Assembly: GCA_025356815.1 (NCBI GenBank)
Contig: JANXQL010000106.1
Coordinates: 1-42,867, forward strand
Source: Pseudomonadota bacterium
GTDB lineage: Bacteria > Pseudomonadota > Gammaproteobacteria > Steroidobacterales > Steroidobacteraceae
DNA length: 42,867 nt
Reading direction: 5' to 3'
Position 1 is the first letter of the stretch; each line of letters begins with the position of its first letter. The notes beneath the pieces were generated by a model. That model worked only from the letters and a program-made list of their open reading frames with translations. It had not been told where the DNA came from and made no database searches. A program made the position numbers and the translations under genes. Shown here one piece after another: positions 1,888 to 17,686 of this stretch.

Positions 1888-2508
1888 TCAGCGCGCCAAA
1901 CCGGCATCGGGAAGTTCGGCGAGCACTTGCTCCGCCGTCGTAAAGCCATCGAGCCGCACCCACTGGGCATCGGCGCTCGATCGCACCAGCACCGCGGGCG
2001 AGTGACTCATCTTGTCGCCGCGGTAGACATTGAACGCTCGCTGGGCAGTCTGGCTCGCTTCGAGCGTGCCGGTGTAGTGCTGCCACTCTGGACCTGCGTT
2101 GATCGAGTGCGCGTAGTCGCGCAGACGAGACGGCGTGTCCTGCTCGGGATCGATGCTGATGGACATCAGGTGTACGCCGCTGCTGCGCTCGCCGAGGCGA
2201 TGCTGCACGTCGGCGAGCGTGTGGCTGATCAGCGGGCAGACGCTGGTGCAGCTGGTGTAGATGAAGGCGAGGACGACCGGACGGCCGTCGTTCATCTCCG
2301 AGGGGAGTTTCACGACCGCGCCATCGTCACGGATAAGCTGCACGTCGGGGACCACGTAGTGCGCGACTGCGCGGCGCGCCTCGGCGACGGCGTGGTGCAG
2401 GTGTGGCTCGGCGCCGACCGGCGACTGTTCGGCGCGGGCGGTGCTGGTGAGCGCCGCGGCAAGCGTGAGTGCAGACACCGCCAGAGTGCGACTGAGAACG
2501 CGAGTCAT
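1888..2508 (-). CDS. SCO1/SenC/PrrC family copper chaperone
   Basis: 206 residues with an N-terminal signal peptide or anchor (residues 1-26, ending ARA) and a thioredoxin-like fold. The copper-binding CxxxC of SCO proteins is present as C87 and C91 (YTSCTSVCP), and the conserved distal His is H169 in DKMSHSPAV. SCO proteins deliver copper to, or control thiols of, cuproenzymes in the periplasm, classically cytochrome oxidase CuA. Here the gene directly precedes a multicopper oxidase, so copper loading of that enzyme is the simplest role (inference). The ATG at 2508 was chosen because it begins the signal peptide; the open frame extends to 2664 but the extra residues look non-coding. A GGGGCGAG stretch lies just upstream. 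Confidence 0.92.
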   Translation of the reverse strand: MTRVLSRTLAVSALTLAAALTSTARAEQSPVGAEPHLHHAVAEARRAVAHYVVPDVQLIRDDGAVVKLPSEMNDGRPVVLAFIYTSCTSVCPLISHTLADVQHRLGERSSGVHLMSISIDPEQDTPSRLRDYAHSINAGPEWQHYTGTLEASQTAQRAFNVYRGDKMSHSPAVLVRSSADAQWVRLDGFTTAEQVLAELPDAGLAR

Positions 2509-2655
2509 TTCTCGCCCCGGGCAAAGCCCTGAGACGGAAATTCCAACGCGAGCGTGCTTGCCCGAGTCATCGCGGACTCTCTCCCTAATCGTTCCTGCAC
2601 CGGGGTCCTCTGGTGCGGGGCACTTTTGTGCACGACGGAGATTGCAGCCACGGCG

Positions 2656-2670
2656 GAATGACAACCATTC
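2656..2670. promoter_or_regulatory. Inverted repeat GAATG-N5-CATTC, weakly Fur-box-like
   Basis: A perfect 5-bp inverted repeat with a 5-bp spacer lies about 150 bp upstream of the SCO start. Read as a 19-mer it matches the classical Fur consensus at 13 of 19 positions by hand alignment. It could be a metal-regulator operator for the copper operon, but chance similarity is possible. Confidence 0.3.
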
Positions 2671-3209: not shown

Positions 3210-3713
3210 CTAGCAGGCCGCGGTGGCCGTGATCGGGATCGGCAGGCGGCGCGAGCTGATCACGAACTGCCACGCCTTGTAGCAGGTCGCGTCCTCGAAG
3301 GCACGGTCCGCGTCCTTGAAGCCCTTGAGCTTCAGCGGCGCCGCGGTCGAGGTTGAGGCAACGCCGTAGATGCCACCCCCCGGCAGGGTCAGCAGTTCCC
3401 ATTCGGTGGACCCGGTGATCGGATCCGGATAGAGCTTCCGCAGAAAATGGTGCGGCACGCCCGACCTCTCGTCAAGGACAAGCTCCTTGAGATTCTGCGG
3501 CAGCTGGCCGCCATTTCGCGTGTAGAAAGCCGTCAGCGCGTTGCGGTATTGCGCGCCGACCCACAGCAGCTGAGCTTCACGCTCGCGCTTGGCTTCGGTG
3601 CTCGCAACGACGCCGACCGTCGCCAGCGCCATGCCAATCAGCACAACGGCGATGATCACGCCGAAGTAGGTAAAGCCGCCCTGGCGGGCGGGGTTGTTCC
3701 TACCAGCTCGCAT
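3210..3713 (-). CDS. Atypical pseudopilin lacking Glu5
   Basis: 167 residues, last gene of the secretion operon. The prepilin leader ends in GG and the mature protein begins FTYFGVIIAVVLIGMAL, a type III signal followed by a long hydrophobic helix and a globular domain. Position 5 of the mature sequence is Gly instead of the Glu that most (pseudo)pilins use for assembly; among T2SS pseudopilins this is known for GspK, the tip subunit. Two Cys near the C-terminus (DATCYK and the final Cys) could matter for folding. The start at 3713 overlaps the preceding pseudopilin by 14 bp and places the leader correctly; upstream codons in the open frame are only the neighbour's shadow. Minor or tip subunit is the likely role. 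Confidence 0.8.
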   Translation of the reverse strand: MRAGRNNPARQGGFTYFGVIIAVVLIGMALATVGVVASTEAKREREAQLLWVGAQYRNALTAFYTRNGGQLPQNLKELVLDERSGVPHHFLRKLYPDPITGSTEWELLTLPGGGIYGVASTSTAAPLKLKGFKDADRAFEDATCYKAWQFVISSRRLPIPITATAAC

Positions 3714-4559: not shown

Positions 4560-6968
4560 TCAGGGCTTGATGGCGATGTTCAGCGGTGGCGCCGTCGGAA
4601 TGCCCGCCCCGGCCTTCAGGCCGGTCGCGGCGACGCGCGCGGACACCGCGCTCGTCGGCCGTACCACGAGCGCCCGGAAGTGCATTGTCAGCAGTGCGCC
4701 ACTACCGGAGATCGGCGCATCGGCCGTGGTCGCAGCGTCGATCAGCGCGACGCCACGCGGCGTCTCGACCTTGGCCTCAACCGGGCCGAGCACGCTGCCG
4801 CTGTCGGCGCCGACAAGCTCGAGCGCGTTCGCATCGTAGCGGACCTGGCCGCGCAGCTGCGTGAGCGGGCCGCCGGTATCGAGGTTCAGCGTGACGTCGA
4901 ACTCGTCACCGACCTTGACCTCGATGGGCGCGTCCCACCCAAGCGTCGGCACGCTCGCCGCCGCGGCCTGCTTCGCCGCTGGCGCAGGCGTCGCCGCGTC
5001 GGCCGCCGGCAGCGTCGTGGCCGGCGTCGTGGCGGCCGTGGCACCCAGCGCGACGGGCGCGGGCACCGTCGGCGCCGCAGCAGCAGGGATCGCTGCTGCC
5101 TGCATCGCCGAAAGGACGATGTTCTTCGGCGCCGCGTTGGGCGCGGCGGACGAATACGACGGCGCGCGCGATGCCGCGCCGCCCAGGCCCTCGACCGTGA
5201 AGCCGCCCAGCGGGGCACTTCGCGCACCGGTTTCGGTGCCGTACCAGAACTCGGTGGTCTCGCTCGACGGGCGGCGCTGCGCGCGGATGATCCGCGGCGT
5301 CACCGCGAGCACGATCTCGGACTTCTCGCGATCGGTCTTGTGGGTGCCGAACAGGCGGCCGAGCAGCGGCAGGTCGCCGAGCCCCGGGATCTTGTTGGCG
5401 GTGCGCTGGTCGGAATCCTGGATCAGGCCTGCCAGGATCTGCGTTTCGCCATCCTTGAGCTGCAGCAGCGTGTTCGCGTTGCGCGTGCCGATCTGGTAGG
5501 CGACGGTGCCCGACGGGGTCGTGATCTGGTTCAGGATGGAGCTGACCTCGAGCTGCAGCTTGATCGCGACGTCACCGTCGCGGTGCACCGTCGGCTCGAC
5601 TTCGAGCGTAAGGCCGACCTCGAGGTACTGCACCGAGCCCGTGACGACCGCTGACGAGGTCGTCGGCGTCACGCTGTTGGTGATCACCGGCACGCGCTGG
5701 CCGATCAGGATCTTGGCCTTCTCGTGGTTGCGCGCGCGGATGCGCGGGCTGGCGAGGGTGTTGGTGAGCCCGGAGGTCTTGAGCATGTTCAGCGTTGCGC
5801 CGATCGAGGAGACCGTCACCGTCGACTTGCCCTGCTTGGCGAAGTCGGAAAGCGTGAGGCCCGTGCCGCCGCCCTGCGGCGTCATCGCGAAGCTGGCGCC
5901 GGCCGGATACTGGATGCCGAGGTTCTGCACGTTCGAATGCGTGATCTCGAGCACCTCGACCTCGAGCATGACCTCCGCGTCCGGCAGGTCGATGGAGTTG
6001 ACCAGCTTCTCGGTCATGCGCACGACCTCGGGCGTGTCGCGCACGACCAGCGTGCCGGTACGGTCGTCGACGAACATCGCCTTCGGGTTGACGATCGTCT
6101 TGATCAGGTTCTGGACCTGCTTCGGGTCGGCGTCGCTGAGGTAGAAGGTCTTGACGATCTCGTCCTGGTAATCCTTCTGCTTGGCAGGCGTGTTCGGATA
6201 GATCATCACCATGTTCGCGGACAGCACCTCGCGCGCCAGCTGGTTCTGGCCGAGCACGAGGTCGATCGCCGTCTCGATGGGCACGTCCTGCACGAAGATC
6301 GTGGTCTTGCCGTCGGCCTTCACGTCCTTGTCGAAGATGAAGTTCACGCCGGTCTGGCGCGAGAGCACCTCGAACACCATCTTGGTGCTGGCGTCGCGGA
6401 ACTGCAGAGTCACCGGGCGGTTGTCCTTGGTACGCAGCTTCGGCGTCGCCTGCACGGGCCCGCGGATCAGGTCGACGCGCTGCTGCAGCTCGACGGCCGG
6501 ACCGAAGCCCGGGTCCTCGGCGAGCACGGCACGGATCGTGGCCTCGGCGTGATCAAGGTCCTTCGCCGCCACGTCCTTCTGGGCGGAGGCGATCGCCTCG
6601 GTATGGCGCTGGTCGGCCACGACCCCCTCGACGCCGCGCAGCGCGCGATCATTGGCGGGGTTGATGGCGAGCACGCGGCGATAGGCCGCGGCGGCTTCGT
6701 CGCGTCGGCCTGCGGCACGCGCGGCGTCCGCCTGCGCAACCAGCTTCTGCACCGCCTCCTCCGTGCGTGCACGCAGGTCGAGCCTGAAGGTCAGGTTATC
6801 GGGCTCCTTCTCCACCGCCTGCTGCAGGCGGGCGACCCCATCCTCGTAGTTACCGTGCTCCACGGCCTTCATGCCGTCATGATGCAGGCGGTCTGCCGCG
6901 CATCCGCTGAGGACAACCGCGCCGGCACAGAGGGCGGCAGTGAGGAATCTGACTCGTCGACCGATCAT
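4560..6968 (-). CDS. Secretin with TPR repeats and C-terminal cohesin-like domain (GspD/MshL-like)
   Basis: 802-residue outer-membrane secretin. It has a lipoprotein signal (LSGC, Cys at about 23), TPR-like helices at about 30-165, and secretin N-domains at about 185-345. The secretin core at about 380-565 includes the VPVITNS region and IPGLGDLPLLGRLFG. A low-complexity Ala/Pro/Thr linker spans about 580-690. The last 110 residues (from VKVGDEFDVTLNL) read as a cohesin-type beta-sandwich with the typical LRGQVRYDANALELV segment. Classic GspD lacks both the TPR part and the cohesin part; the former may replace a separate pilotin/TPR protein. The gene overlaps its upstream neighbour by 4 bp. 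Secretin identity is certain; the cohesin call is by sequence pattern. Confidence 0.93.
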   Translation of the reverse strand: MIGRRVRFLTAALCAGAVVLSGCAADRLHHDGMKAVEHGNYEDGVARLQQAVEKEPDNLTFRLDLRARTEEAVQKLVAQADAARAAGRRDEAAAAYRRVLAINPANDRALRGVEGVVADQRHTEAIASAQKDVAAKDLDHAEATIRAVLAEDPGFGPAVELQQRVDLIRGPVQATPKLRTKDNRPVTLQFRDASTKMVFEVLSRQTGVNFIFDKDVKADGKTTIFVQDVPIETAIDLVLGQNQLAREVLSANMVMIYPNTPAKQKDYQDEIVKTFYLSDADPKQVQNLIKTIVNPKAMFVDDRTGTLVVRDTPEVVRMTEKLVNSIDLPDAEVMLEVEVLEITHSNVQNLGIQYPAGASFAMTPQGGGTGLTLSDFAKQGKSTVTVSSIGATLNMLKTSGLTNTLASPRIRARNHEKAKILIGQRVPVITNSVTPTTSSAVVTGSVQYLEVGLTLEVEPTVHRDGDVAIKLQLEVSSILNQITTPSGTVAYQIGTRNANTLLQLKDGETQILAGLIQDSDQRTANKIPGLGDLPLLGRLFGTHKTDREKSEIVLAVTPRIIRAQRRPSSETTEFWYGTETGARSAPLGGFTVEGLGGAASRAPSYSSAAPNAAPKNIVLSAMQAAAIPAAAAPTVPAPVALGATAATTPATTLPAADAATPAPAAKQAAAASVPTLGWDAPIEVKVGDEFDVTLNLDTGGPLTQLRGQVRYDANALELVGADSGSVLGPVEAKVETPRGVALIDAATTADAPISGSGALLTMHFRALVVRPTSAVSARVAATGLKAGAGIPTAPPLNIAIKP

Positions 6969-7591
6969 GGTGTCGCTCCGGTTGCCAGCGCCTGCCGCTG
7001 GTTGAGGGGCTTGTAGAGGAAGACCAGCTGCCCGCCCTTGGCGGACTCGATCTGATAGATCCCGTCGAGCGTGTCGCCGACCTTGACGTCGTAGACGCGA
7101 TCGCCGCGGGTGAGGAAGAAAACGGTGGCATCGCCCGACGGCGTGTAGCTGCCCAGGAACACGAACGGCAGCGGCGGCGCCATCGGTGGTGGCGGCGGCA
7201 CGTACACCGGTGGCGGCGGTGGCACGTACGGCGGCGGCGGCGGCGCCACGTACCAGCTGTGGGCGCCGAACAGCGCGCCGGCGTGGCTTGCGTCGGCGAC
7301 CCGCGCCGACTTCGGCACCGCGGCCGCGGCTGCGGCGGCCGCAGCCTTGGTCGCATCGACCGCCTTCGCCGTGACCGCGATGCCGCGTGCCCTGGCAGAG
7401 GCGACGACGCGGGCACGGGCGGCGGCGATCTCGGCGGCGCGTTCGGCGTGCTGCACCTGGCGGGCGTGGTAGTACCAGGCGCCGCCGCCGGCCATCGCCG
7501 CAACGAGGACCGCCGCGGCACCACCGAGCAGGTAACGGCGCTTGTTCGCCGCGAACCGGGGCGGCGAAGGAAGCAGCAGCAGGTCGCTCAT
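6965..7591 (-). CDS. PilP/GspC-like inner-membrane coupling protein, proline-rich
   Basis: 208 residues: short cytoplasmic N-terminus, one membrane helix at about 24-42, an Ala-rich segment, then a striking proline-rich stretch of PPPPPYV/PPPPPVYV repeats at about 117-140. A C-terminal beta domain follows (FVFLGSYTPSGDATVFFLTRGDRVYDVKVGD...). The topology and C-terminal domain resemble PilP or the HR domain of GspC, which link the inner-membrane assembly to the secretin. The Pro-rich linker could span the periplasm. It overlaps the secretin gene and the PilO-like gene by 4 bp each. Assignment rests on position and architecture rather than strong motifs. Confidence 0.65.
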   Translation of the reverse strand: MSDLLLLPSPPRFAANKRRYLLGGAAAVLVAAMAGGGAWYYHARQVQHAERAAEIAAARARVVASARARGIAVTAKAVDATKAAAAAAAAAVPKSARVADASHAGALFGAHSWYVAPPPPPYVPPPPPVYVPPPPPMAPPLPFVFLGSYTPSGDATVFFLTRGDRVYDVKVGDTLDGIYQIESAKGGQLVFLYKPLNQRQALATGATP

Positions 7592-8253
7592 GGGGCGCCC
7601 CGCGTGTAGAACGTCAGCCGCAGGCGGGCCTCGACCTGGCCGTCCACGATGGTCTTGCGCTCGATGTTCAGCTCGGTGATCGACACCGCAGGCAGCGCCA
7701 CCAGGACCGCGTCGATGAACTGGCGCACCTGCGGGTAGGGACCGGTGACGGGGAACGAAACCCGGTAACGCGTGATGTCACCGCTCTTGGACAGCGCGGC
7801 CTCGTACTTGCCGGTGTCGAGCGACAGCTTTGCCTCGTCGGCCTGCGTCAGCAGCACGCCGAGCAGCTTGGGCATGTCGGCCCGTGCCGGCAGGTGGCGA
7901 AGGGTCTGCGCGGCTTCGCTGGCAAGCGGCGCGACCTTTGGGACGCTGGTCCGCGCCTCGCTCAGCTGGGCGCGCAGCGCGGCGGCCTCGTTGGCCACCT
8001 GCAGGTGCGTTGAGAAGAAGAACACCGCGCTGGCCAGCGCAAGTCCAATACCGAGGAGGCCCGTCCGGCCGCTGCGGCTGATGTGCCACGCGACCAGTGG
8101 TGCCCACTCGTTGCTGATCCGGGCCGCGAACTGCCGCACCGGCACGAGCAGGTCGGAGCGGCGCGCGGCCGGCACCGGCGGTCGCGGGCTGGTCGGCGCC
8201 GGCGCGAGCGAGATGCCCGGCGTGTTGGTCTTGACGACGCTCACGTGCGCCAC
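7588..8253 (-). CDS. PilO/GspM-like assembly protein
   Basis: 221 residues. A Pro-rich cytoplasmic N-terminus leads to one membrane helix at about 64-84 (TGLLGIGLALASAVFFFST). A helical segment follows, then a ferredoxin-like periplasmic domain with YRVSFPVTGPYPQVRQFIDAVL, typical of PilO/GspM. PilO pairs with PilN to connect the platform to the outer-membrane channel. The GTG at 8253 overlaps the upstream gene by 13 bp; a second GTG at 8244 would overlap it by 4 bp and is an equally plausible start. Confidence 0.72.
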   Translation of the reverse strand: MAHVSVVKTNTPGISLAPAPTSPRPPVPAARRSDLLVPVRQFAARISNEWAPLVAWHISRSGRTGLLGIGLALASAVFFFSTHLQVANEAAALRAQLSEARTSVPKVAPLASEAAQTLRHLPARADMPKLLGVLLTQADEAKLSLDTGKYEAALSKSGDITRYRVSFPVTGPYPQVRQFIDAVLVALPAVSITELNIERKTIVDGQVEARLRLTFYTRGAP

Positions 8254-8759
8254 TCCGCCACGAGCTTGACGCGGACCGGGTGCTCCGGGTCGTCCTTCTT
8301 CAGCTCATGGCTCTCGAGCATCGGGTAGCGCAGCACCGTGCTCTTCTGTAGGCGCTGCAGGTACGACAGTGCGGCCGGCAGCGAGCGGGTCTCGGCGGTG
8401 ATGCGCACCACGTGCTTGGCGGGATCAGGCTCGACCTGCAGCAGCGAGACGGTGGATTCGGAGTCCTGTCCGGCAGCCTCGAGCTCTGTCAGCAGCTGCG
8501 ACCAGGGGATCGACAGCTCCGCCTCGATCTTGGCCGCGTCCTCGCCTGACTTCAGTGACCCGGGCAGCTTCGGGGAACGAGCGGCCGTGACCGCGTTGAG
8601 TTCCGCATCGAGGCGATTGCGCTCGTTGACCTGGGAATCGAACATCAGGCCGACCGTGATCGCGACGGCAAGTCCGATCGCGCACAACGACGCGCCGACG
8701 ATCGGCGCCCGGTGCGGACCCGCCACGAAATCCAGGTACAGGGCGGCCGGCTTGCTCAC
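8241..8759 (-). CDS. PilN-like assembly protein
   Basis: 172 residues with one membrane helix near the N-terminus (about 18-38, IVGASLCAIGLAVAITVGLMF), a helical linker, and a ferredoxin-like domain whose LPAALSYLQRLQKS segment matches PilN and the periplasmic part of GspL. It begins with GTG overlapping the preceding stop in a GTGA arrangement. Together with the PilM-like gene it corresponds to a GspL split into two proteins, the arrangement found in type IV pilus and MSHA systems. Confidence 0.7.
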   Translation of the reverse strand: MSKPAALYLDFVAGPHRAPIVGASLCAIGLAVAITVGLMFDSQVNERNRLDAELNAVTAARSPKLPGSLKSGEDAAKIEAELSIPWSQLLTELEAAGQDSESTVSLLQVEPDPAKHVVRITAETRSLPAALSYLQRLQKSTVLRYPMLESHELKKDDPEHPVRVKLVAEWRT

Positions 8760-9571
8760 GCATACACCCGCTGCAGCAGCGCGAGCTCGTGGGTCTGGGC
8801 GCCGGCGCTGCCGTCATCCTCGAGCCACTCCAGATCGGTGCCGGTGAGGGTCGCACCGCGGCGCATCCAGATCGGGGCGTCGACGAACATGCGACCGACG
8901 CCGCTGTTGGCGCGCGTCAGGCGACCGAACGCCTGCAGGCGCTCCAGTTCCACCGTCCAGTCCGACGACAGGCGCGCCATGTGCACGCGATCCCACGCGC
9001 CGTTGGTCAGGTGCACCGCCGACAGCGAACCGTCGTCGAGACTGACGAACCAGGTGTCGTCGGCCGGCAGGCGGTGCCGCCAGGCGTTGAACGCGACCAC
9101 CAGCTGCGGCTGCAGCGAGACCATCTTCAGGCGCGCCGGCAGCAGCGCTTCCTCGAGCGCCGAACGCAGGTTGCCGGGCATCGCGCAGGCGACGTACGCG
9201 TGGCCGGGCGGCGTGTCCGCGAGCGTCACGTTCCAGTCGGCGACGCCGTCACCGAAGGTGTCGGAGAGCACGTAGCGGGCGTGGGTCAGCCGACCCTCGC
9301 TGTCCAGGCGCGTATTGGGCCACGGCACGATGCCGTAGCGCGCCCAGGGGTCCGCGAGGACCACGCGCACCGAGGCGTCCTGCCAGGTCGGTTCGGACAG
9401 CACCTCGGCGAGCTTGGCGAAGGTCGGGCGGATGTCGCCGAAGTGCCCGTTCGGGACGGCGACCTCGGTGGCCGCACCGACCTGCGGGCGCAGGCCCTTC
9501 TCGCGCCTGGCCAGCGCGATCTTCCGCGGGGCGACGTAGATCGCTATCTCATCACGCCAGAGCGGTGACAC
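8756..9571 (-). CDS. PilM/GspL-N-like cytoplasmic assembly protein
   Basis: 271 residues, no membrane segment. The sequence looks like a divergent actin-fold protein of the PilM / GspL cytoplasmic type (VRVVLADPWARYGIVPW, HAYVACAMPGNLRSALEEAL, WFVSLDDGSLSAVHL), though the classic nucleotide-binding motifs are not obvious. The GTG start at 9571 has TGGAGG six bases upstream; the gene overlaps the ATPase gene by 20 bp and the PilN-like gene by 4 bp. By position it bridges the GspE ATPase and the membrane assembly. Confidence 0.65.
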   Translation of the reverse strand: MSPLWRDEIAIYVAPRKIALARREKGLRPQVGAATEVAVPNGHFGDIRPTFAKLAEVLSEPTWQDASVRVVLADPWARYGIVPWPNTRLDSEGRLTHARYVLSDTFGDGVADWNVTLADTPPGHAYVACAMPGNLRSALEEALLPARLKMVSLQPQLVVAFNAWRHRLPADDTWFVSLDDGSLSAVHLTNGAWDRVHMARLSSDWTVELERLQAFGRLTRANSGVGRMFVDAPIWMRRGATLTGTDLEWLEDDGSAGAQTHELALLQRVYA

Positions 9572-11264
9572 GATTGGCCTCCAGGAGTGTAGTCGCGCCT
9601 TGCTGCACGAGATCGAGCGCGGCGGTCCGGATCAGGCGCGAGCCGCCGGCGATCGCCAGTTCCTTCAGGCGGCGCGCGGGGGCACGGGCGACGATCGCCT
9701 CGCGCAGTTCGTCGGTGAGCACCAGCAGCTCGCCGATGGCCTTGCGTCCCTTGTAGCCGGTGCCGCGACAGTGCGCGCAGCCGCGGCCCGAACGGAACTT
9801 CCAGTCGGCCACGGCCGGTAGCATCAGGCCCGACTGCGCGACGAGGTCCGGCGAGGGCTGCACGGGTTCTGCGCACTGCTCGCAGACCATACGCACCAGG
9901 CGCTGAGCGAGGATGCCGTTCAATGCCGAGACGAACGCGTAGGCATCGACCTCCATGTGCGAGAAACGGCCGAGCACGTCGAAGACGTTGTTGGCGTGGA
10001 CGGTGGTGAACACGAGGTGGCCGGTGAGCGCGGACTGGATCGCGATCTGCGCGGTTTCCGGGTCGCGAATTTCGCCGACCATGATCTTGTCGGGGTCGTG
10101 GCGCAGGATCGAGCGCAGGCCGCGCGCGAAGGTGAGGCCCTTCTTCTCGTTGACCGGGATCTGCAGCACGCCCTGCAGCTGGTACTCGACCGGATCCTCG
10201 ATGGTCACGATCTTGTCGTTGCCGGTATTGGTCTCGGACAGGGCCGCGTACAGGGTCGTGGTCTTGCCGCTACCGGTGGGCCCGGTGACCAGCAGCATGC
10301 CGTACGGCAGCTGCGCGAGGCGCCGCAGCCGACGGACGACGTCCTCGTCGAAGCCGAGCCCGCTGAGGCTCAGGCCCTTCAGCTCATCGGTCAGCGCCTG
10401 CTTGTCGAGGATACGCAGCACGGCGTCCTCGCCGTGCACGCTGGGGATGATCGAGACGCGAAAGTCGATCGGCCGGCCCTTGAGCGCGAGCTTGAAGCGG
10501 CCGTCCTGCGGCACGCGGCGCTCGGCGATGTCCAGCTCGCTCATGACCTTGATGCGCGAGATGACCTGCTCGCACAGATCCGGCCCGCCGAGGGTCGCGA
10601 CGTGCACGAGCACGCCGTCGACGCGATAGCGCACCGCGAGGCCGCCGGGGCGGGTCTCGAGGTGGATGTCGCTGGCGCCGGCCTTCAGCGCGTCATAGAC
10701 GGTCGAGTGGACCAGCTTGACGACCGGGCTTGAGTCGGCGCTGATGGTCGCGAGCGACAGGTTCTCGATGTCGCTGTCGATCAGGATCTCGCCGGCCGTG
10801 TCCAGCGTGGCGACGTCCATCGCCCGCATGTCCTGCTCGTGCTTGGCCAGGAACGCGGTGATCTCGCCGGGCGCGGCGAGGTACCAGGTCATGGCGACGT
10901 TCACCTGCAGCTCGAGCCAGCTGCGCAGCGTCGGATCGAACGGATCGCCGATGACGGCGAGGAACTCCTCGCCACGGCGCACGATCACGCAGCCGCGCTT
11001 GCCGCCCTCCGCAGGGCCCAGCACGTCGAAGGCCGGCGGCAGCGCCATCAGCGTCGCGCCATCGAGGACCGGATAGCGCAGCGCGGCACCCAGCGCCGCG
11101 GCGAGCGCATCGCCCGCAAGGCCTGTCGACTCGGCCAGCAGGTCCAGCGCCGAACGGCGCGTCAGCGCGGCCGAGTCGATCGCGGCTCGCAGCACGTGGT
11201 CGGAAAGGGGCGCGGGCGCCCCGCCGCCCACGTTCAGTCCAAGCGATTCCGGAGCGGCACTCAT
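9552..11264 (-). CDS. gspE: Secretion/pilus assembly ATPase GspE
   Basis: 570 residues. An N-terminal GspE-N domain is followed by the RecA-like motor: Walker A GPTGSGKT at 328-335, the Asp box IEDPVE at about 356-361, Walker B region IMVGEIRDPETA at 394-405, and the His box TVHANN at 421-426. A tetracysteine zinc site is formed by C461, C464, C496 and C499 (CEQC and CAHC), as in GspE/PilB. It powers pseudopilin assembly at the cytoplasmic face. ATGA overlap with the upstream gspF stop indicates coupled translation. Confidence 0.96.
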   Translation of the reverse strand: MSAAPESLGLNVGGGAPAPLSDHVLRAAIDSAALTRRSALDLLAESTGLAGDALAAALGAALRYPVLDGATLMALPPAFDVLGPAEGGKRGCVIVRRGEEFLAVIGDPFDPTLRSWLELQVNVAMTWYLAAPGEITAFLAKHEQDMRAMDVATLDTAGEILIDSDIENLSLATISADSSPVVKLVHSTVYDALKAGASDIHLETRPGGLAVRYRVDGVLVHVATLGGPDLCEQVISRIKVMSELDIAERRVPQDGRFKLALKGRPIDFRVSIIPSVHGEDAVLRILDKQALTDELKGLSLSGLGFDEDVVRRLRRLAQLPYGMLLVTGPTGSGKTTTLYAALSETNTGNDKIVTIEDPVEYQLQGVLQIPVNEKKGLTFARGLRSILRHDPDKIMVGEIRDPETAQIAIQSALTGHLVFTTVHANNVFDVLGRFSHMEVDAYAFVSALNGILAQRLVRMVCEQCAEPVQPSPDLVAQSGLMLPAVADWKFRSGRGCAHCRGTGYKGRKAIGELLVLTDELREAIVARAPARRLKELAIAGGSRLIRTAALDLVQQGATTLLEANRVTALA

Positions 11265-12442
11265 CGGATGCTCCCGGCGAGTTCGAAGATCGGAAAGTAC
11301 ATGAGCACGACCACGCCGCCGATGATCAGGCCGATGACCGTCATCATGGCCGGCTCAATCAGGCGGGTCGCGACCTCGACCCAGCGCGACAGCTCCTCGT
11401 CGTAGAACGAGGCGATGCGTTCCATCATTTCACCCATGTTGCCGCTGCGCTCGCCGACCCGCAGCATGCGTTCGGCGACCGGCGTCGTAAGCCCCTGGCT
11501 TGCGAGCGAGTCGGTCATCGACTTGCCTTCGCGCACGGCGCGCGTGGCCGCCGCGAGCCGCGGCTGGGATGCCACCGCGAGCAGTCCGCGGGTCATCTCG
11601 AAGGCGGTCACCACCGGCAGGCCGCCACGCAGCAGCATGCCTACCGTGCGGTACATGCGTGCCAGCTGATAAAGCTCGATCTGTCGCCCGATCGTCGGGA
11701 TGCGCGCGACCGCGCGACCGACGGCCGCGCGAAAGCCCGGCTGCATCACGCCGCGCACGAGCAGCACGGTGGAGACGAGGAATCCGACCAGCACCCCGGT
11801 GCCGTGTGCGGCGAGCAGTTGCCCCCACTTCATCAGCATGCGGGACGCGAACGGCAGTTCGCCGCCAATGTCCTCGTAGATCCCCGAGAAGCGCGGCACG
11901 ACGTAGCCGACGAGGAACAGCACGACCAGGGTGCCTGCACCGAGCAGCACCGCGGGGTAGATGGAAGCGTTGATCAGGCGCTTCTTGAGGACGTCGATCT
12001 GCTGCTGGTAGGCGACGAAGCGTCGTAGCGCCTCGGGAATCGCGCCGCTGCGCTCGGAGGCGCGCACGGTCGCGACGTACAGGGGCGTGAACGTGCTCGG
12101 AAATTCACCGAGCGCGACCGACAGGCTCTGGCCCTCGTAGAGCCGCCGGCGGATGCCCTCAAGCACGTTGCGGATCGCGTCGTCGCGCTCCTTCTCGGTC
12201 AGTGCGTCGATGGCCTCGACCAGCGACAGGCCCGCCTCGAGCAGCGCGATCAGCTCGTTGCTGAACTGCACCAGGCTGAGCTTGGTCCGTCCCAGCGGCG
12301 CGAGGCGCGAGGACGCCTCGAGCGCGATGACCCGCAGCCCGCGCGCCAGTGCCTGACGGCGCGCATCAGCCTCGTCGACCGCGTCCAGCTCGTGGGTCGC
12401 GACCGCTCTGGCGGCATCGAGGACGGTGAGGCGAAAGCGCAT
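11261..12442 (-). CDS. gspF: Secretion platform protein GspF
   Basis: 393 residues with the duplicated GspF domain: first copy FSNELIALLEAGLSLVEAI..., second copy LARMYRTVGMLLRGGLPVV.... Three hydrophobic segments lie at about 165-187, 213-233 and 365-385. GspF/PilC is the polytopic inner-membrane platform that, with the ATPase, drives filament growth. It starts six bases after the gspG stop codon and overlaps gspE by 4 bp. Length and domain layout are standard. Confidence 0.95.
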   Translation of the reverse strand: MRFRLTVLDAARAVATHELDAVDEADARRQALARGLRVIALEASSRLAPLGRTKLSLVQFSNELIALLEAGLSLVEAIDALTEKERDDAIRNVLEGIRRRLYEGQSLSVALGEFPSTFTPLYVATVRASERSGAIPEALRRFVAYQQQIDVLKKRLINASIYPAVLLGAGTLVVLFLVGYVVPRFSGIYEDIGGELPFASRMLMKWGQLLAAHGTGVLVGFLVSTVLLVRGVMQPGFRAAVGRAVARIPTIGRQIELYQLARMYRTVGMLLRGGLPVVTAFEMTRGLLAVASQPRLAAATRAVREGKSMTDSLASQGLTTPVAERMLRVGERSGNMGEMMERIASFYDEELSRWVEVATRLIEPAMMTVIGLIIGGVVVLMYFPIFELAGSIR

Positions 12443-12448
12443 GGAGGG

Positions 12449-12889
12449 TCAGTTGGTCCAGTTGGTGATGTCGGCATCCTCACCGGTACCGCCGGGACGG
12501 CCATCCTTGCCGAGCGAGGACAGGTCGAAATCGCCGTGCTGGCCGGGGCTAACATATAAGTAGGGTCGACCCCAGGGATCCGCCGGCACGCCCTTCTTCA
12601 GATACGGCCCGCCCCAATTGGTTTCGCCGCCGCTCGGCGCCGCCTGCAGTACCGCGAGGCCTTCCTCGGTGGTCGGGTAGCGGCCGAGGTCGAGGCGGAA
12701 CTGGTCCAGCGCCTTGTCGAGCGCGTCGATCTGCGCCTTGGCGACCTTCACCTGCGACTTGCCGACCTGCGCGAAGTAGCGCGGCGCGACGAAGCCGGCG
12801 AGCAGGCCGATGATGACCATCACCACCAGCAGTTCGAGCAGCGTGAAGCCACGCGCGCGGAACAGGTTGGACGACAGGCGACGAGGCAT
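12449..12889 (-). CDS. gspG: Major pseudopilin GspG
   Basis: 146 residues, first gene of the secretion operon. The leader MPRRLSSNLFRARG is cut before FTLLELLVVMVIIGLLAGFVA (Phe1, Glu5). The rest matches GspG closely: RYPTTEEGLAVL, NWGGPYLKKGVPADPWGRPY, and the acidic C-terminal DFDLSSLGKDG calcium loop. The start at 12889 has GGAG eight bases upstream; the longer open frame adds only non-pilin residues. It forms the short pseudopilus of a type II secretion system. The copy of the TAGGGTTTCAC motif 129 bp upstream suggests control by the adjacent two-component system (inference). Confidence 0.95.
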   Translation of the reverse strand: MPRRLSSNLFRARGFTLLELLVVMVIIGLLAGFVAPRYFAQVGKSQVKVAKAQIDALDKALDQFRLDLGRYPTTEEGLAVLQAAPSGGETNWGGPYLKKGVPADPWGRPYLYVSPGQHGDFDLSSLGKDGRPGGTGEDADITNWTN

Positions 12890-13017
12890 GCACGCTACTC
12901 CAGCAATAATCCACCGGGCGCAGGGGGCCGGCATGACAGCCATGCTGCCCTGCCCCCGGCAAGCCTGACAGTCGGCCTTTGGGGGGGGTGCAGCGCGCGC
13001 TTCCCCGTAGCTGGGGC

Positions 13018-13033
13018 TAGGGTTTCACGGTAG
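13018..13033 (-). promoter_or_regulatory. Regulator-binding-like motif, copy 1 (gspG promoter)
   Basis: Plus-strand TAGGGTTTCACGGTAG. It matches the copy at 15141-15156 at 15 of 16 positions, and both have GTAG one helical turn further left. It lies 129 bp upstream of gspG. Recurrence only near the kinase/regulator locus suggests a LuxR-type response-regulator site. Confidence 0.5.
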
Positions 13034-13175
13034 GCGCTGCAGTACCGGGCCAGCGCCAGGCTCCTGCGGGTCAGATATTCATCCTTCGCTTGAATCTAGG
13101 CCAATAACCCCTTGTCGGAAGGTAGGACGAACACGTAGCAGACCCGGCCGAAGAGTCCCTGCAGGACCCCGACCC

Positions 13176-13196
13176 GGGGCGGTGACACCGCTCCCC
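13176..13196. terminator. GC-rich hairpin downstream of the kinase gene
   Basis: GGGGCGG pairs with CCGCTCCCC around TGACA, with a two-base bulge. It lies about 75 bp past the kinase stop. No T-tract follows, so it is at best a weak or Rho-assisted terminator. Confidence 0.25.
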
Positions 13197-13271
13197 GCGG
13201 CCGTTCAGCAACCCGGGGTGAAGGCGCCCTTATGTTAAACGATGACGACGCCGCGGGCCGCCGGCCGCCTC

Positions 13272-15026
13272 TCAGTTCAAGCGCGCGTTCGCCCGGCGGG
13301 CGGCGGTCCCCGCCACCACCGGCCATTCCAGCCGGACCAGCGTGCCTTGTCCCGGAGCGCTGGACACCATGCACCGCCCGCCGCTGCGCTCGGTCCGTTC
13401 GCGCAGGCCCCGCAGGCCGCGCAGTTCGGGGCGATCCACCAGCCGGCGCACATCGCCGCTGATCGCAAAGCCGGTGCCATCGTCCTGGACCGTCACGGCC
13501 AGCGTACCGTCCTCCAGCCGCATCGCCACCTCGACCCGGTGGGCGCCGGCATGGCGGGCGACGTTGTTCAGCGATTCCTGCACCGCCCGATAGACGTTGG
13601 TGCCGAGCATCGGCGGGATATCGGCGTCCTGGACCTCGATGGACGTATCGATCGCGATCTCGGTGTAGACGTCATGCCAGTCACGGCACAGGCTCTTGAC
13701 TGCGGACGCCGCCCCCAGATCGTCGAGCACCGCCGGGCGCAGGTTCATCGAGATGCCGCGCACCTCCTCCATGACCCGCTGCACGCGCTCGACCGCGGAT
13801 TCGACCACGTCGGCGGCATTCTTGGCTTCCTGCCGGCGGGCGAGCACCTGCGCCCGCTCCAGCGAATACTTGATCGCGCTCAGCGACTGGCCGACCGAGT
13901 CGTGCAGGTCCTGTGCGATGCGCTTGCGCTCCTCTTCCTGTGCGCTCATCAGCCGCTCCGACAGGCCTTCCAGCTCGCGCTGCGAGGTGAGCAGCGATTC
14001 CTCGGCGTCGCGGCGCCGGACCACTTCGTCACGCAGCGCGCGATTGGTGGCGGTGAGTTCCGCGGTGCGTTCATCCACCCGGCTCTCCAGCGTCTGGTTG
14101 AGCGTCTTCAGGTTGCGCTCGATGTGGCGCAGCGAGGTGACGTTCGAGACCACGAACGCGACGCGCTGCCAGGGGACTGCCGGCGCACCGCTCGGGTCGC
14201 TCGACACGCGCAGCTCGACGTTGAGGTCGAGCCCGAGCCTCGGGTCGCTCAGCTCGAAGCTGGTCGAGGCCTTCTCGCCGAGCTCGTCGAGCGCCGCATC
14301 GAGCGTACGGCGAAACAGGCAACTTTCATCGCTGCACGCCGGGTGCAGGACGGTGTGCAGGTCGTGGCCGATGGAATCCTGAACCGTGCCGAGCATCCAG
14401 CGCTCGAGGCTGCGGTTCACGCGCACGACGCGGCGGCGGCGGTCGAGCAGACCGACCACCTCCGGGAGCGCGTCGGCGGTACGCTCCCATTCGATCTTGG
14501 CGTGGTAGATGGCCGACAGCGTGCGCGAGCGCTCCGCATCGCCCGCGGTGATCGCGGCGGCGGCGCCGATCATGCGTCGCGTCGTCTCGACCGCGACCTC
14601 GCGCAGCTCGTTCTCCGCGGCATCCGGTGGGGCGAGGAACAGCAGCACATACAGCGGGTCGGTGGGATCGGGAATGGCGCCACAAAACGCCTGCATCGGG
14701 CCGAGCAAGGCCCCAGTGGCGGCCGAATCGGCGGCGCGGCGCTTGGCGGCGATCTGCACCACACGCGTGGGATCCCGCAGCGCCTCGCCGATCGCCGGCA
14801 CCTCGTGCAGGTGGACTGCCCGCATCTGCCAGGCGAGGGGCATGTTCGCGCCGGCCACGGCACGTAGCGTATCGAGGTTCGGTTCGCGCTCGAACACGAC
14901 GGCGAGGGAACCGGGAAACGTGTCGACCAGTGCGCGGCAGGCGACGTCCGCCAGGCGACGGACCGTCACTGCCGAATCGCACGCGGCGGACAGCTGCGTG
15001 ATCAGGCCGACGAGACGCCGCATCAT
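13272..15026 (-). CDS. Cytoplasmic GAF-PAS sensor histidine kinase, NarX/DesK-type (HisKA_3)
   Basis: 584 residues from the ATG at 15026, which has GAGGGG seven bases upstream; an ATG at 15065 would add 13 residues but has a poorer ribosome site. No membrane helix is evident. Order: GAF-like domain (about 10-160), PAS domain (about 185-300), coiled coil (about 305-365), HisKA_3 with the phospho-His in QDLHDSVGQS (H375), and an HATPase with RAVQESLNNVARHAG, DDGTGF and GLRGLRERTE. The PAS domain carries a Cys-x4-Cys pair (HPACSDESC) that could bind metal or sense redox (inference). Such kinases partner with NarL/FixJ regulators, two of which lie just beyond. The TAGGGTTTTAC motif sits upstream, consistent with autoregulation. 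Confidence 0.92.
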   Translation of the reverse strand: MMRRLVGLITQLSAACDSAVTVRRLADVACRALVDTFPGSLAVVFEREPNLDTLRAVAGANMPLAWQMRAVHLHEVPAIGEALRDPTRVVQIAAKRRAADSAATGALLGPMQAFCGAIPDPTDPLYVLLFLAPPDAAENELREVAVETTRRMIGAAAAITAGDAERSRTLSAIYHAKIEWERTADALPEVVGLLDRRRRVVRVNRSLERWMLGTVQDSIGHDLHTVLHPACSDESCLFRRTLDAALDELGEKASTSFELSDPRLGLDLNVELRVSSDPSGAPAVPWQRVAFVVSNVTSLRHIERNLKTLNQTLESRVDERTAELTATNRALRDEVVRRRDAEESLLTSQRELEGLSERLMSAQEEERKRIAQDLHDSVGQSLSAIKYSLERAQVLARRQEAKNAADVVESAVERVQRVMEEVRGISMNLRPAVLDDLGAASAVKSLCRDWHDVYTEIAIDTSIEVQDADIPPMLGTNVYRAVQESLNNVARHAGAHRVEVAMRLEDGTLAVTVQDDGTGFAISGDVRRLVDRPELRGLRGLRERTERSGGRCMVSSAPGQGTLVRLEWPVVAGTAARRANARLN

Positions 15027-15140
15027 GGAAAGGCCCCTCTGGAAACCCCCGTGGGACGAAGGCATCCTGCCTTGCGCATGGACGCGGCCGATAGTCGGCG
15101 GGTCGGGGGGCGGGGGCGCTCGCTGCCGGGTAGAGCCCGG

Positions 15141-15156
15141 TAGGGTTTTACGGTAG
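15141..15156 (-). promoter_or_regulatory. Regulator-binding-like motif, copy 2 (kinase promoter)
   Basis: Plus-strand TAGGGTTTTACGGTAG, abutted by the inverted repeat CCGGG-TAGAG-CCCGG at 15126-15140. It includes the direct repeat CGGTAG at 15138-15143 and 15151-15156. It lies 115 bp upstream of the chosen kinase start and 7 bp past the transglycosylase stop. Confidence 0.5.
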
Positions 15157-15162
15157 ACCGAC

Positions 15163-15777
15163 TCAGGTCGCCCGGGTCAGGAACTGCTTGTACAGGCGTA
15201 GCACGGCCGGGACGTATTCGCGTGTCTCGCGATAGGGCGGGATGGTCTTGCCGTAGCGATCCACGGCGTCCTCGCCCGCGTTGTACGCGGCGAGCGCCAG
15301 CTCGATGTTGTTGTTGTAGCGCTTGAGCAGGTAGCTCAGGTAGCTCGCCCCACCGCGGACGTTCTGCTCCGGATCGAACGGGTTGCCAACGCCATAGCGG
15401 CGCGCGGTCGACGGCAGCAGCTGCATCAGGCCCTGGGCACCGGCCCGCGAAACCGCCCGCGGATCGAAGGCCGATTCAACCGCGATCACCGCGCGCACCA
15501 GCGCCGGATGCACGGCCGCCGTGCGGGCCGCCCGGTCGATCATCCCGGAGTAGGTGGCAGCGCGCTCGCGCCAGTCGCCCCTGATCGCCGTGGCCACCGC
15601 GCCGCGCTGCGGGCTCGGCTCGGGCGGCGACTTGATCAGGAGCGCGTAGCGCGAATCGTCCGGCAGGTTGGTGTAGTGCGTGATCCCCTGCTCGTCCGTG
15701 AACGCGTAGATGTCGGCGCGGGCCCGGGGGGGCGCGAGCAGACAGGACAACGCGAGAACGAAGCAGACAATCCGCAT
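15163..15777 (-). CDS. Periplasmic lytic transglycosylase (SLT domain, DUF4124 N-terminus)
   Basis: 204 residues. A signal peptide at 1-22 is followed by a DUF4124-like segment (DIYAFTDEQGITHYTNLP) and an SLT lysozyme-like domain: catalytic Glu101 in AVIAVESAFDPRAVS, then GAQGLMQLLPSTA, and the AYNAGE motif near 165. It cleaves peptidoglycan glycan strands. Such enzymes often accompany trans-envelope machines, and here it lies inside the regulatory locus of a secretion operon. The start at 15777 was chosen because it begins the signal peptide; the frame is open to 15828. Confidence 0.92.
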   Translation of the reverse strand: MRIVCFVLALSCLLAPPRARADIYAFTDEQGITHYTNLPDDSRYALLIKSPPEPSPQRGAVATAIRGDWRERAATYSGMIDRAARTAAVHPALVRAVIAVESAFDPRAVSRAGAQGLMQLLPSTARRYGVGNPFDPEQNVRGGASYLSYLLKRYNNNIELALAAYNAGEDAVDRYGKTIPPYRETREYVPAVLRLYKQFLTRAT

Positions 15778-15890
15778 GCTGGCCACTCTAGTGCAACCTG
15801 CCCTGCCTATCCTAGGTAGGTCGACCACTTAGCCGCATCTAGGGGGCGGAGGGTAGCGCGGCGGTGGAGTTGACCCAAAAACTGAGACAC

Positions 15891-15920
15891 GGTTCTCAGA
15901 ATTCGTCAATTCTGTGAACC
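15891..15920. promoter_or_regulatory. Long inverted repeat upstream of the first response regulator
   Basis: Arms GGTTCTCAGAATT (15891-15903) and AATTCTGTGAACC (15908-15920) pair at 12 of 13 positions around CGTC. It lies in the 244-bp divergent region between the transglycosylase and the regulator, about 100 bp before the regulator start and 24 bp before motif copy 3. No T-tract follows on the plus strand. It could be an operator or the end of a decayed mobile element. Confidence 0.5.
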
Positions 15921-15943
15921 ATTATGTCGTCAGAGGCAGACAG

Positions 15944-15959
15944 TAGGGTTTCACTGCAG
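15944..15959. promoter_or_regulatory. Regulator-binding-like motif, copy 3 (divergent promoter region)
   Basis: TAGGGTTTCACTGCAG: the left 11 bases equal copy 1 and the right end diverges (CTGCAG instead of CGGTAG). It sits 63 bp before the first response regulator and 167 bp upstream of the divergent transglycosylase, in the same orientation relative to the latter as copies 1 and 2 have to their genes. Confidence 0.4.
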
Positions 15960-16021
15960 TTAAATGCGGTTTATCCCTGCGGTGCACGAAGCACGCAGTA
16001 TGGCAGCTATAGGGAATCGTC

Positions 16022-16780
16022 ATGAGCCACAATGAGCCGGTGTTCGCAACCCAACTTGCTGAATTAACTGGAAAAATCGGAGACGGTCGCCCGCTTTCAC
16101 GCGGCGCGGGACCGGTCCGGATCATGCTGGTGGACGACCACGCGATCCTGCGGGAGGGCCTGAGCGCCCTGATCGAGCTGGAGGCGGACCTGAAGGTCGT
16201 CGGCCAGGCCGGTTCGATTCCCGAGGCGGTGGACGTCGCGACCTCCCTGAAGCCCGATCTGATCGTCACCGACATCTCGCTGCCCGGCGCGACCGGCATG
16301 CAGGGCATCGTCGAGCTGCGCTCGCGGGCCCCGAACGCCCGCCTGGTCGTGCTCACGGTGCACAACACCGAGGAATACATCCGCGCCGCGCTGTCCGCCG
16401 GCGCCGATGGCTACATCCTCAAGGACGCGAGCCGACTGGAACTGATCCACGGCATCCGCGCCGTGCTCGCCGGCCAGCGCCACCTCTGCCCGCGTTCGTC
16501 CGCGCGCGTCGTGCGCAGCTACCTGGGCGAGCCGCAGCCGACCGCCGCCGCGGTCGTCGGCGTCACCGGTCGCGAGCGCGAGATTCTCGCGATGATCGCG
16601 AGCGGCCAGTCGAACAAGCGCATCGCGATCGTCCTCAATCGGAGCGTGAAGACGGTCGAGAAGCACCGCGCCAACCTGATGCGCAAGCTCGGCCTGCACA
16701 ACGTCGCCGACGTCACGCGCTTCGCGCTGCAGAGCGGACTGTTGCACTCGCAGCCGGCGGACGCCGGCGTCGACGCCTGA
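16022..16780 (+). CDS. NarL/FixJ-family response regulator
   Basis: 252 residues with a 30-residue N-terminal extension, then a canonical receiver: acidic pair D38-D39 in IMLVDDH, phosphoacceptor D84 in DLIVTDISLPG, Thr in VVLTVHN, and Lys in GYILKDAS. The output domain is a LuxR-type helix-turn-helix (TGREREILAMIASGQSNKRI...SVKTVEKHRANLMRKLGL). AGGGA lies seven bases before the ATG. It is the likely partner of the nearby HisKA_3 kinase and the best candidate to bind the TAGGGTTT motif found at three promoters here. Family certain; targets inferred. Confidence 0.94.
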   Translation: MSHNEPVFATQLAELTGKIGDGRPLSRGAGPVRIMLVDDHAILREGLSALIELEADLKVVGQAGSIPEAVDVATSLKPDLIVTDISLPGATGMQGIVELRSRAPNARLVVLTVHNTEEYIRAALSAGADGYILKDASRLELIHGIRAVLAGQRHLCPRSSARVVRSYLGEPQPTAAAVVGVTGREREILAMIASGQSNKRIAIVLNRSVKTVEKHRANLMRKLGLHNVADVTRFALQSGLLHSQPADAGVDA

Positions 16781-16966
16781 CGGCGGACGATGTCGGCGAG
16801 TTCGCCGGCTGCTTCGCGTTCCGATGCAATGGTTCGGACGGTACTACTTCACTAACCTGCCTTGCCGCGCGACCATATGTCGCATCGCGGCTGCATGGGT
16901 GCGCGAGGCGCCGGTAGACTCCGGCATTCGGTTCGGGGCCACGAGGGTCCGTCGAGCAAGGATGCG

Positions 16967-17686
16967 ATGAACGCGAACCAGTCGGACGTCGTAGTGGGTA
17001 TCAGCAGCGGCACACGTGTCCTGATCGTTGACTCGCAAGCCATCGTTCGCGAGGGCCTGAGCGTGCTGCTCGCGCTCGAGGACGACCTGAGCGTCATCGG
17101 TCACGCCCCCTCCGCCGAAGAGTGCATGGCCAACGCCCATCGCCTCGACCCGGACCTGATCATCACCGAACTCGAGCCGCGCGGCGCGGCGGCGCTCGAG
17201 GACCTGCGCCGGACCTTCCCCAGCGCCATCGTGCTGGTGCTGAGCGTGATGGCGACCGAGGAGGCGATTCGCCTCGCACTTGCCGCCGGCGCCCACGGCT
17301 ACGTGCTCAAGGAGTCAGGTCGGATCGAGCTGCTGCACGGCATTCGTGCGGTCATCGGCGGCACGCGCTTCCTGTGCGAGCGGGCCGCCGCGCGCGTGGT
17401 CCGCAGCTATCTCGGCGACAGCGTGGCGGGCACCGTCACGCAGATCTCCACCCCGATCACGCGCTCCGAGCGCGACATCCTCTCGATGGTGGCGCGCGGC
17501 CTGTCGAACAAGCACATCGCGCGGCTGCGCCAGCGCAGCGTCCGCACGATCGAGAAACAGCGCGCGATGCTGATGCGCAAGCTCGGGCTGCGCAACGCCG
17601 CGGAGCTGACCCGCTTCGCACTCAAGCACGGGCTGGTCCAGGCAGAGGCGGCAACCGGCGATAATTCGCACGCGCCGATCGTCTGA
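16967..17686 (+). CDS. LuxR-type regulator with degenerate receiver (Asp to Glu)
   Basis: 239 residues from the ATG at 16967 (AAGGA five bases upstream). Clearly related to the regulator before it over its whole length, but the receiver is altered. The phosphoacceptor position is E68 (DLIITELEPRG, where the neighbour has DLIVTDISLPG), and the acidic pair is D22-S23 instead of Asp-Asp. S93 and the conserved Lys K115 remain. The LuxR output domain is intact although its recognition region (HIARLRQRSVRTIEKQRA) differs from the sister protein. A Glu there can mimic phosphorylation in some receivers, so the protein may be constitutively active or controlled by dimerisation with its sister (inference). 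A GCGAC-N5-GTCGC repeat at 16869-16883 lies upstream. It ends back to back with the convergent gene at 17687. Confidence 0.9.
   Translation: MNANQSDVVVGISSGTRVLIVDSQAIVREGLSVLLALEDDLSVIGHAPSAEECMANAHRLDPDLIITELEPRGAAALEDLRRTFPSAIVLVLSVMATEEAIRLALAAGAHGYVLKESGRIELLHGIRAVIGGTRFLCERAAARVVRSYLGDSVAGTVTQISTPITRSERDILSMVARGLSNKHIARLRQRSVRTIEKQRAMLMRKLGLRNAAELTRFALKHGLVQAEAATGDNSHAPIV

Follow-up and report, generated by a model that had tools for sequence, protein, structure and literature searches.

Genes and repeated sites of the locus

The window is the whole 42,867-nucleotide stretch analysed here, contig JANXQL010000106.1 of a Steroidobacteraceae bacterium (assembly GCA_025356815.1). It carries the genes of a type II-like secretion machine and of a two-component system, and a 16-bp word is repeated in the intergenic gaps between them. 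Comparison with related genomes indicates that the repeated word is a real, evolutionarily conserved control site. The unit of the site is a 17-bp direct repeat, CTAC-N8-CCTAC, placed at a set distance from a -10-like box, and the locus holds at least five such sites. The genome from which the window was taken (the own genome, G000 among the numbered genomes compared) comprises 4,001,791 bases in 207 contigs. The principal genes are:

4560..9571, minus strand: other secretion genes, including those of a PilO-like protein and of a secretin with TPR and cohesin-like matches
9552..12943, minus strand: gspG, gspF and gspE
13272..15026, minus strand: sensor kinase with HisKA_3 and HATPase domains, a weak PAS_4 match and an N-terminal alpha-beta domain
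15163..15778, minus strand: lytic transglycosylase with DUF4124 and SLT domains
16022..16780, plus strand: RR1, a NarL/FixJ-type response regulator and the candidate binder
16862..17686, plus strand: RR2, a second regulator, with Glu replacing the phospho-acceptor Asp

Domain searches agree with the gene reading of the initial annotation for gspG, gspF, gspE, the kinase, the transglycosylase, RR1 and RR2. The same annotation had placed three intergenic copies of the word before gspG, before the kinase gene, and between the genes of the transglycosylase and RR1, and their positions and strand are confirmed:

13018..13033, plus strand, intergenic: copy 1, TAGGGTTTCACGGTAG
15141..15156, plus strand, intergenic: copy 2, TAGGGTTTTACGGTAG
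15944..15959, plus strand, intergenic: copy 3, TAGGGTTTCACTGCAG

A scan of the window allowing up to three mismatches returned four matches against 0.33 expected, the fourth of which (41314) has three mismatches. The initial annotation had noticed no good copy elsewhere in the window and had missed core sites at 13122-13138 and 15816-15832. In the whole own genome, exact TAGGGTTTYACKGYAG occurs at three places, all of them the copies at the locus. Allowing up to three mismatches, the own genome holds 32 matches: three exact, none with one mismatch, one with two mismatches, which sits within an open reading frame (ORF), and 28 with three. The three-mismatch matches look like background, because the reversed-pattern control for the 16-mer gave 53 matches against these 32. 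The whole-genome controls are the patterns read backwards, which is not a null model for the core, where the control lies far above the pattern itself (33 versus 4 in the own genome; 508 versus 81 in 15 genomes). Two of the four exact cores in the own genome (GTAGG-N8-GTAG on the plus strand) are at this locus.

The GTAG previously noted at the same offset to the left of copies 1 and 2 is present 11 bp from TAGGG at 13007 and 15130, and constitutes a conserved third element, so that an extra half-site stands beside the 17-bp repeat in two promoters, gspG P1 and that of the kinase. The inverted repeats said to abut these copies also exist (CCCC-N6-GGGG at 13003-13016; CCGGG-N5-CCCGG at 15126-15140), but they are short and lie in G+C-rich DNA, and only the TAC within them is invariant in relatives. 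As a direct repeat (offset 13, four positions) the sites match at 90%, compared to 41% for the best dyad (eight pairs; 21% expected), in a comparison biased by the choice of its 31 sites with the direct-repeat pattern.

Two promoter classes and their conservation

The upstream regions of gspG and the kinase gene were surveyed at 13 loci, 26 regions in total. Thirteen of the regions, from seven genomes (G000, G001, G005, G008, G010, G011, and G012), have the layout of class A, which in gene orientation consists of [C/G]TAC-N8-CC, TAC one turn on, and then GCCGACT. The seven genomes, the own genome included, belong to the same genus, and G016 and G023 to the same family. The distance from the start of the site to GAC is 60 bp in 12 of the 13 promoters and 59 bp in the kinase promoter of G001; the kinase promoter of G010 contains two GCCGAC, the first of them at 60 bp. 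All 13 share an unchanged GCCGACT and an unchanged first and third TAC. Class A was not found in either promoter of G006, G007, G009, G014, G016, and G023, or before gspG of G005. The kinase promoter of G016 has kept the 17-bp core without GCCGACT.

In class B, the core is followed 23-25 bp on by TAGAGT, TACAGT, TAGATT or TTAAAT. This arrangement precedes the transglycosylase gene at ten of the 13 loci (nine by the survey, and G005 by a sequence model, R2, described below) and gspG at three (G000, G008, and G007). The transglycosylase site of G007 has a 7-bp inner gap, and those of G000 and G008 are one base off the core. If the hexamers are taken as -10 boxes, the site centres lie at about -44 in class B and about -64 in class A, two helical turns apart. 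The sites and presumed promoter parts of the locus are as follows:

13017..13033, minus strand: copy 1 as class A site of gspG promoter P1 (gene orientation CTACCGTGAAACCCTAG)
13007..13010, minus strand: third CTAC half-site of gspG P1, its TAC invariant in the 13 class A promoters
12967..12976, minus strand: GCCGACTGTC, presumed -10 region of gspG P1, with GAC 60 bp from the site start
13122..13138, minus strand: class B site of the second gspG promoter, P2 (CTACGTGTTCGTCCTAC), with a like layout in G008 and G007
13093..13098, minus strand: TAGATT, presumed -10 of gspG P2, 23 bp past the site
15140..15156, minus strand: copy 2 as class A site of the kinase promoter (CTACCGTAAAACCCTAC)
15130..15133, minus strand: third CTAC half-site of the kinase promoter
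15090..15099, minus strand: GCCGACTATC, presumed -10 region of the kinase promoter
15816..15832, minus strand: class B site of the transglycosylase promoter (CTAAGTGGTCGACCTAC)
15785..15790, minus strand: TAGAGT, presumed -10 of the transglycosylase promoter, 25 bp past the site
15943..15959, plus strand: copy 3, filling the 17-bp gap from CAGACA to TTAAAT before RR1
15937..15965, plus strand: presumed RR1 promoter, CAGACA-N17-TTAAAT, as read from the sequence

Copy 3 differs in its setting. On the plus strand it reads CAGACA-GTAGGGTTTCACTGCAG-TTAAAT, and the 17-bp site is exactly the gap between the -35-like and -10-like boxes; therefore, self-repression by occlusion is predicted. In G005 the arrangement is kept with two changes within the site, and in G008 the boxes and the first half are kept and the second half is degenerate. 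A scan for sigma-70 promoters gave no match, at the presumed RR1 promoter or elsewhere.

The fixed distance to the invariant GCCGACT, which resembles the -10 box of flagellar sigma-28, could mean that the element is an unusual core promoter recognised by an alternative sigma factor, and not an activator site. However, the core ends 43 bp from GACT, 23-25 bp from the TAGAGT-like boxes, and 0 bp from TTAAAT. Three spacings to three -10-like boxes argue against recognition by a sigma factor, since a sigma factor needs one spacing, and no -35 box of sigma-28 was seen in the class A promoters at the distance expected for it. The core-promoter explanation is very improbable. That the copies are functionless remnants of a duplicated promoter segment is hardly credible: the gspG P1 and kinase promoters do share further G+C-rich letters between their boxes, but the TAC triplets and GCCGACT are invariant though the kinases are down to 57-60% identical to that of the own genome.

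Two other elements were observed near copy 3. The word TTATGTC at 15922-15928, upstream of RR1, is exact in seven of the 11 orthologous loci read, with variants in G006 and G014; it also occurs before gspG in G006, G009, and G014. A terminator-like stem on the minus strand (15882-15899), between copy 3 and the transglycosylase gene, perhaps ends a short leader or antisense transcript; the region contains three such stems, compared to 1.4 in shuffled sequences.

Specificity of the sites and the candidate regulator

Strict class A and class B patterns, derived from the promoters at which they were counted, gave 13 and 12 matches, respectively, in 277 kb of these loci, all at the promoters themselves, and none in 711 kb of other loci or in 20 shuffles. 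Sequence models were searched against 60 genomes by scoring only the best first-look candidates, at most 86 or 103 per genome, under stricter filters, a procedure by which weak sites may be lost. Model R1, for class A, recovered its 13 training promoters at E-values up to 5.2e-11, with the next best match at 0.0136. Model R2 was built on 11 of the 12 surveyed class B promoters, the G007 transglycosylase site being excluded. Its only matches below an E-value of 0.01 were ten training promoters and one promoter absent from the training set, that of the G005 transglycosylase gene (E-value 0.0026); the eleventh training promoter, from G016, scored 0.074, behind an unrelated match in G040 at 0.025.

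The triple-TAC pattern has 18 matches in 15 genomes, 11 of them at this locus. The core alone occurs 81 times in the 15 genomes of the genus: 16 times at class A or B promoters, twice before a copper-oxidase cargo operon, and twice before cstA. Four genomes without the kinase (G002, G003, G004, and G013) hold 20 cores, and the other 11 genomes 61, including the 16 at promoters. The 61 of the 81 cores that remain are probably background, because the kinase-less genomes hold about as many cores each. The initial annotation had asked whether sites in the genome and its relatives concentrate before gsp, kinase, and exported-protein genes. They are conserved before gspG and the kinase gene. Within the own genome none was seen ahead of further exported-protein genes, and pattern and model searches there showed no genome-wide regulon. 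At the places examined in relatives, the core precedes the cargo operon in two genomes and cstA in two.

Six off-locus matches with up to two mismatches were found in G000, G005, and G008, four within ORFs and two upstream of cstA. The cstA sites, CTACC-N3-AAACCCTAC, lie at 3392-3408 of stretch L256 (G008) and 3177-3193 of L257 (G005), at -170 and -160, and are confined to these two genomes. In G008, another large multicopper oxidase gene lies divergently to cstA. As a general target cstA was rejected: the own genome and the other nine of 12 cstA loci have at best two three-mismatch matches.

RR1 has a receiver domain (PF00072, 1.4e-24) and a GerE domain (PF00196, 3.3e-17), the combination required of a NarL/FixJ-type regulator, and its phospho-acceptor Asp is kept in the orthologues aligned. 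The kinase matches HisKA_3 (PF07730, 1.2e-15), and its PAS_4 match is slightly below the cut-off. Across 13 orthologues the kinase has the consensus AQDLHDSVGQSLS, and H375 is conserved to 90% or more. In the PAS-like part, H224, H228, C231, and C236 (His-x3-His-x2-Cys-x4-Cys) are invariant in all 13 orthologues, and may form a metal or redox centre. The secondary structure of the predicted model (mean pLDDT 82, pTM 0.34) fits a GAF-like and a PAS-like domain ahead of the helical core; no GAF family was matched in the domain search of the kinase. The nearest named kinase records are metagenome-assembled 'uncultured proteobacterium' contigs (L105 and L106).

The two proteins are inherited together. 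Kinase matches with E-values below 1e-80 are present in 13 of 60 genomes, own included, and RR1 relatives of at least 54% identity in the same 13 (40 genomes searched). Both share a contig stretch with gsp genes in ten genomes, own included. The secretin (E-values up to 1e-60) was found in 14 of the 60 genomes, namely 12 of the 13 kinase genomes, G003, and G029; the contig of the thirteenth, G012, ends before the secretin gene. The G003 contig starts inside gspE, with the regulator region outside it, and G029 has weaker relatives of the locus parts in one stretch. The order of divergent RR1, transglycosylase, kinase, and gspG-F-E is kept in the same-genus genomes G001, G014, and G006 to G012, except that G007 has another regulator between kinase and gspG. 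In G005, this gene block is distributed between two contigs. In G016 and G023, the transglycosylase, kinase, and gsp genes are together, and RR1 lies some 30 kb away or on a different contig. GspE, GspF, GspG, and the secretin are encoded together, the combination expected of a type II system; GspG scores above its equivalog cut-off, and the other three match below theirs. In a look-up of GspC, GspL, and GspM, 7588-8253 gave a PilO match, and 6965-7591, 8241-8759, and 8756-9571 have no Pfam or NCBIfam family.

RR1 was present in every genome found to have sites. It is the best candidate binder, an assignment well supported by synteny and co-occurrence, and synteny also suggests that the kinase is its partner. 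RR2 was rejected as the binder because it is missing where the sites persist and because it lacks the phospho-acceptor Asp. Among the loci compared, it is limited to G000 and G008; the search in G005 gave no second relative above 36% identity. With Glu at the phospho-acceptor position, RR2 is possibly permanently 'on' or independent of phosphorylation.

It is probable that the motif is the binding site of RR1, acting with the kinase in a scheme of activation and self-repression. RR1 in its phosphorylated form would recognise the direct repeats CTAC-N8-CCTAC. In gspG P1 and the kinase promoter, the site centre would be about 64 bp before the start, with the extra half-site about 48 bp before it, a class I-like position. 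At the transglycosylase promoter and gspG P2, the centre would be about 44 bp before the start, overlapping the -35 region, as in class II activation. RR1 would thus activate the secretion operon, the transglycosylase gene, and the gene of its own kinase, and repress its own gene through copy 3, so that feedback would be positive by way of the kinase and negative by way of RR1. The initial annotation had proposed a NarL-type regulator that controls itself and the secretion machine. In agreement with this proposal, an element placed before the kinase gene and gspG is common to the two-component genes and the secretion operon, but the unit, number, and geometry of the sites had to be adjusted, copy 3 stands where repression would be expected, and the transglycosylase gene would also be a target.

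Several observations weigh against the assignment to RR1. Loss of the motif from orthologous promoters had been named as a sign against regulation by RR1. The motif is kept in the seven genomes, but promoters of class A or B could not be recognised in G006, G009, G014, and G029, although these four encode relatives of RR1 and of the kinase and although RR1 of G006 and G014 has an almost identical recognition helix. Three of the RR1-bearing relatives carry at gspG, instead of class A, a palindrome like that of CRP sites. Direct repeats are unusual for the NarL/FixJ family. The bare core is at background level outside the locus, copy 3 is retained in G005 and partly in G008 only, and GCCGACT is a poor match to a sigma-70 -10 box, with none reported by the promoter scan. 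Another transcription factor encoded elsewhere, such as a global regulator or a protein of the LytTR type, which recognises direct repeats, with RR1 and the kinase as its targets, would suit the better fit of direct than inverted repeats among the preselected sites (90% versus 41%) and the RR1-keeping genomes with no recognisable sites. However, a global regulator should have sites elsewhere, and the exact 16-mers and two of the four exact cores are at the locus. Together with the presence of RR1 in every genome found to have sites, this makes another factor unlikely.

RR1 has a receiver and a GerE domain, and among solved structures it is nearest to NarL of E. coli, but at 155 bits RR1 is far below the curated NarL cut-off of 250 bits. 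NarL binds the heptamer TACYYMT in an inverted 7-2-7 arrangement, and the TAC at the start of each half-site of the present element recalls this heptamer. Unlike NarL sites, however, the element is a direct repeat with a 13-bp period, and inverted heptamers were not found. ComA of Bacillus subtilis, a NarL-family regulator, is reported to use both inverted and direct repeats, with type I and type II activation, the half-site TTGCGG, and a 5-nt spacer in the direct repeats (PMC4797271). ComA provides a precedent for direct repeats in the NarL/FixJ family, with a site sequence and spacing that differ from those described here.

Probable copper-oxidase cargo and control of gspG in relatives

Downstream of the secretion genes, the window continues with:

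1888..2664, minus strand: SCO1/SenC copper chaperone
1..1786, minus strand: multicopper oxidase, running off the window

Oxidase genes follow the secretin gene in eight genomes (G000, G001, G003, G006, G008, G009, G010, and G011). In relatives, a second oxidase gene and the gene of a giant protein come next in the block (3605 amino acids in G001, with a signal-like start). The multicopper oxidases are likely the cargo of the secretion machine. In two of the eight cargo operons, those of G001 and G011, the core precedes the SCO1 match by 166 bp, and G006 has a one-mismatch core in opposite orientation at a similar distance. In the own genome, no core within one mismatch was found before the SCO1 operon. 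In G016, the oxidase genes adjoin RR1 and have a one-mismatch core ahead of them. Multicopper oxidase relatives elsewhere (ten stretches, one of 333 bases) gave three one-mismatch cores, none convincing.

The palindrome CGTGA-N6-TCACG is present in the kinase-gspG gaps of G006, G009, and G014 (L098, L099, and L100), where the class A site is missing, 20 nt before TACAGT, TACAGT, and TAGGAT, respectively. The CRP consensus is TGTGA-N6-TCACA, with the palindrome about 41 bp before the start, and by this likeness CGTGA-N6-TCACG looks like a site of the CRP family. The regulatory wiring of gspG therefore seems to have changed in the three genomes. The pattern is also found in the gspG gaps of G005, which has no class A site there, and G007, in both cases without such a -10-like box at that distance. 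In 13 sources (253 kb, the G005 stretch excluded) it occurs six times, four of them in the gspG gaps of G006, G007, G009, and G014.

It is possible, though doubtful, that the locus provides copper oxidases with an export line of their own, under the control of a sensor. The His/Cys set of the kinase would sense metal or redox state, and RR1 would switch on, through one box, the secretion machine, the transglycosylase as an opener of the wall, and in some species the operon of SCO1, multicopper oxidase, and giant protein; in a subclade, control would flip to the CRP type. A type II machine tied to a multicopper oxidase has a parallel in Geobacter, a distant organism. The Geobacter Pul/Oxp type II system is reported to be required for secretion of the multicopper oxidase OmpB (PMC3543383).

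No paper in the literature searched matched the box sequence in the spellings used, and no type II secretion system under two-component or NarL-type regulation was recognised from titles and the opening parts of abstracts. The system is of a known kind, a NarL-type local regulon; within the literature searched, its site sequence, its two geometries, and the tie to copper-oxidase secretion are new. The locus offers a concrete cis-code by which a type II-like secretion machine would be switched on by its own two-component system. Natural variants accompany it: two geometries that would activate, one that would repress, and an exchange for a CRP-like site. If multicopper oxidases are the cargo, this would matter for how uncultured bacteria oxidise metals or phenols outside the cell.

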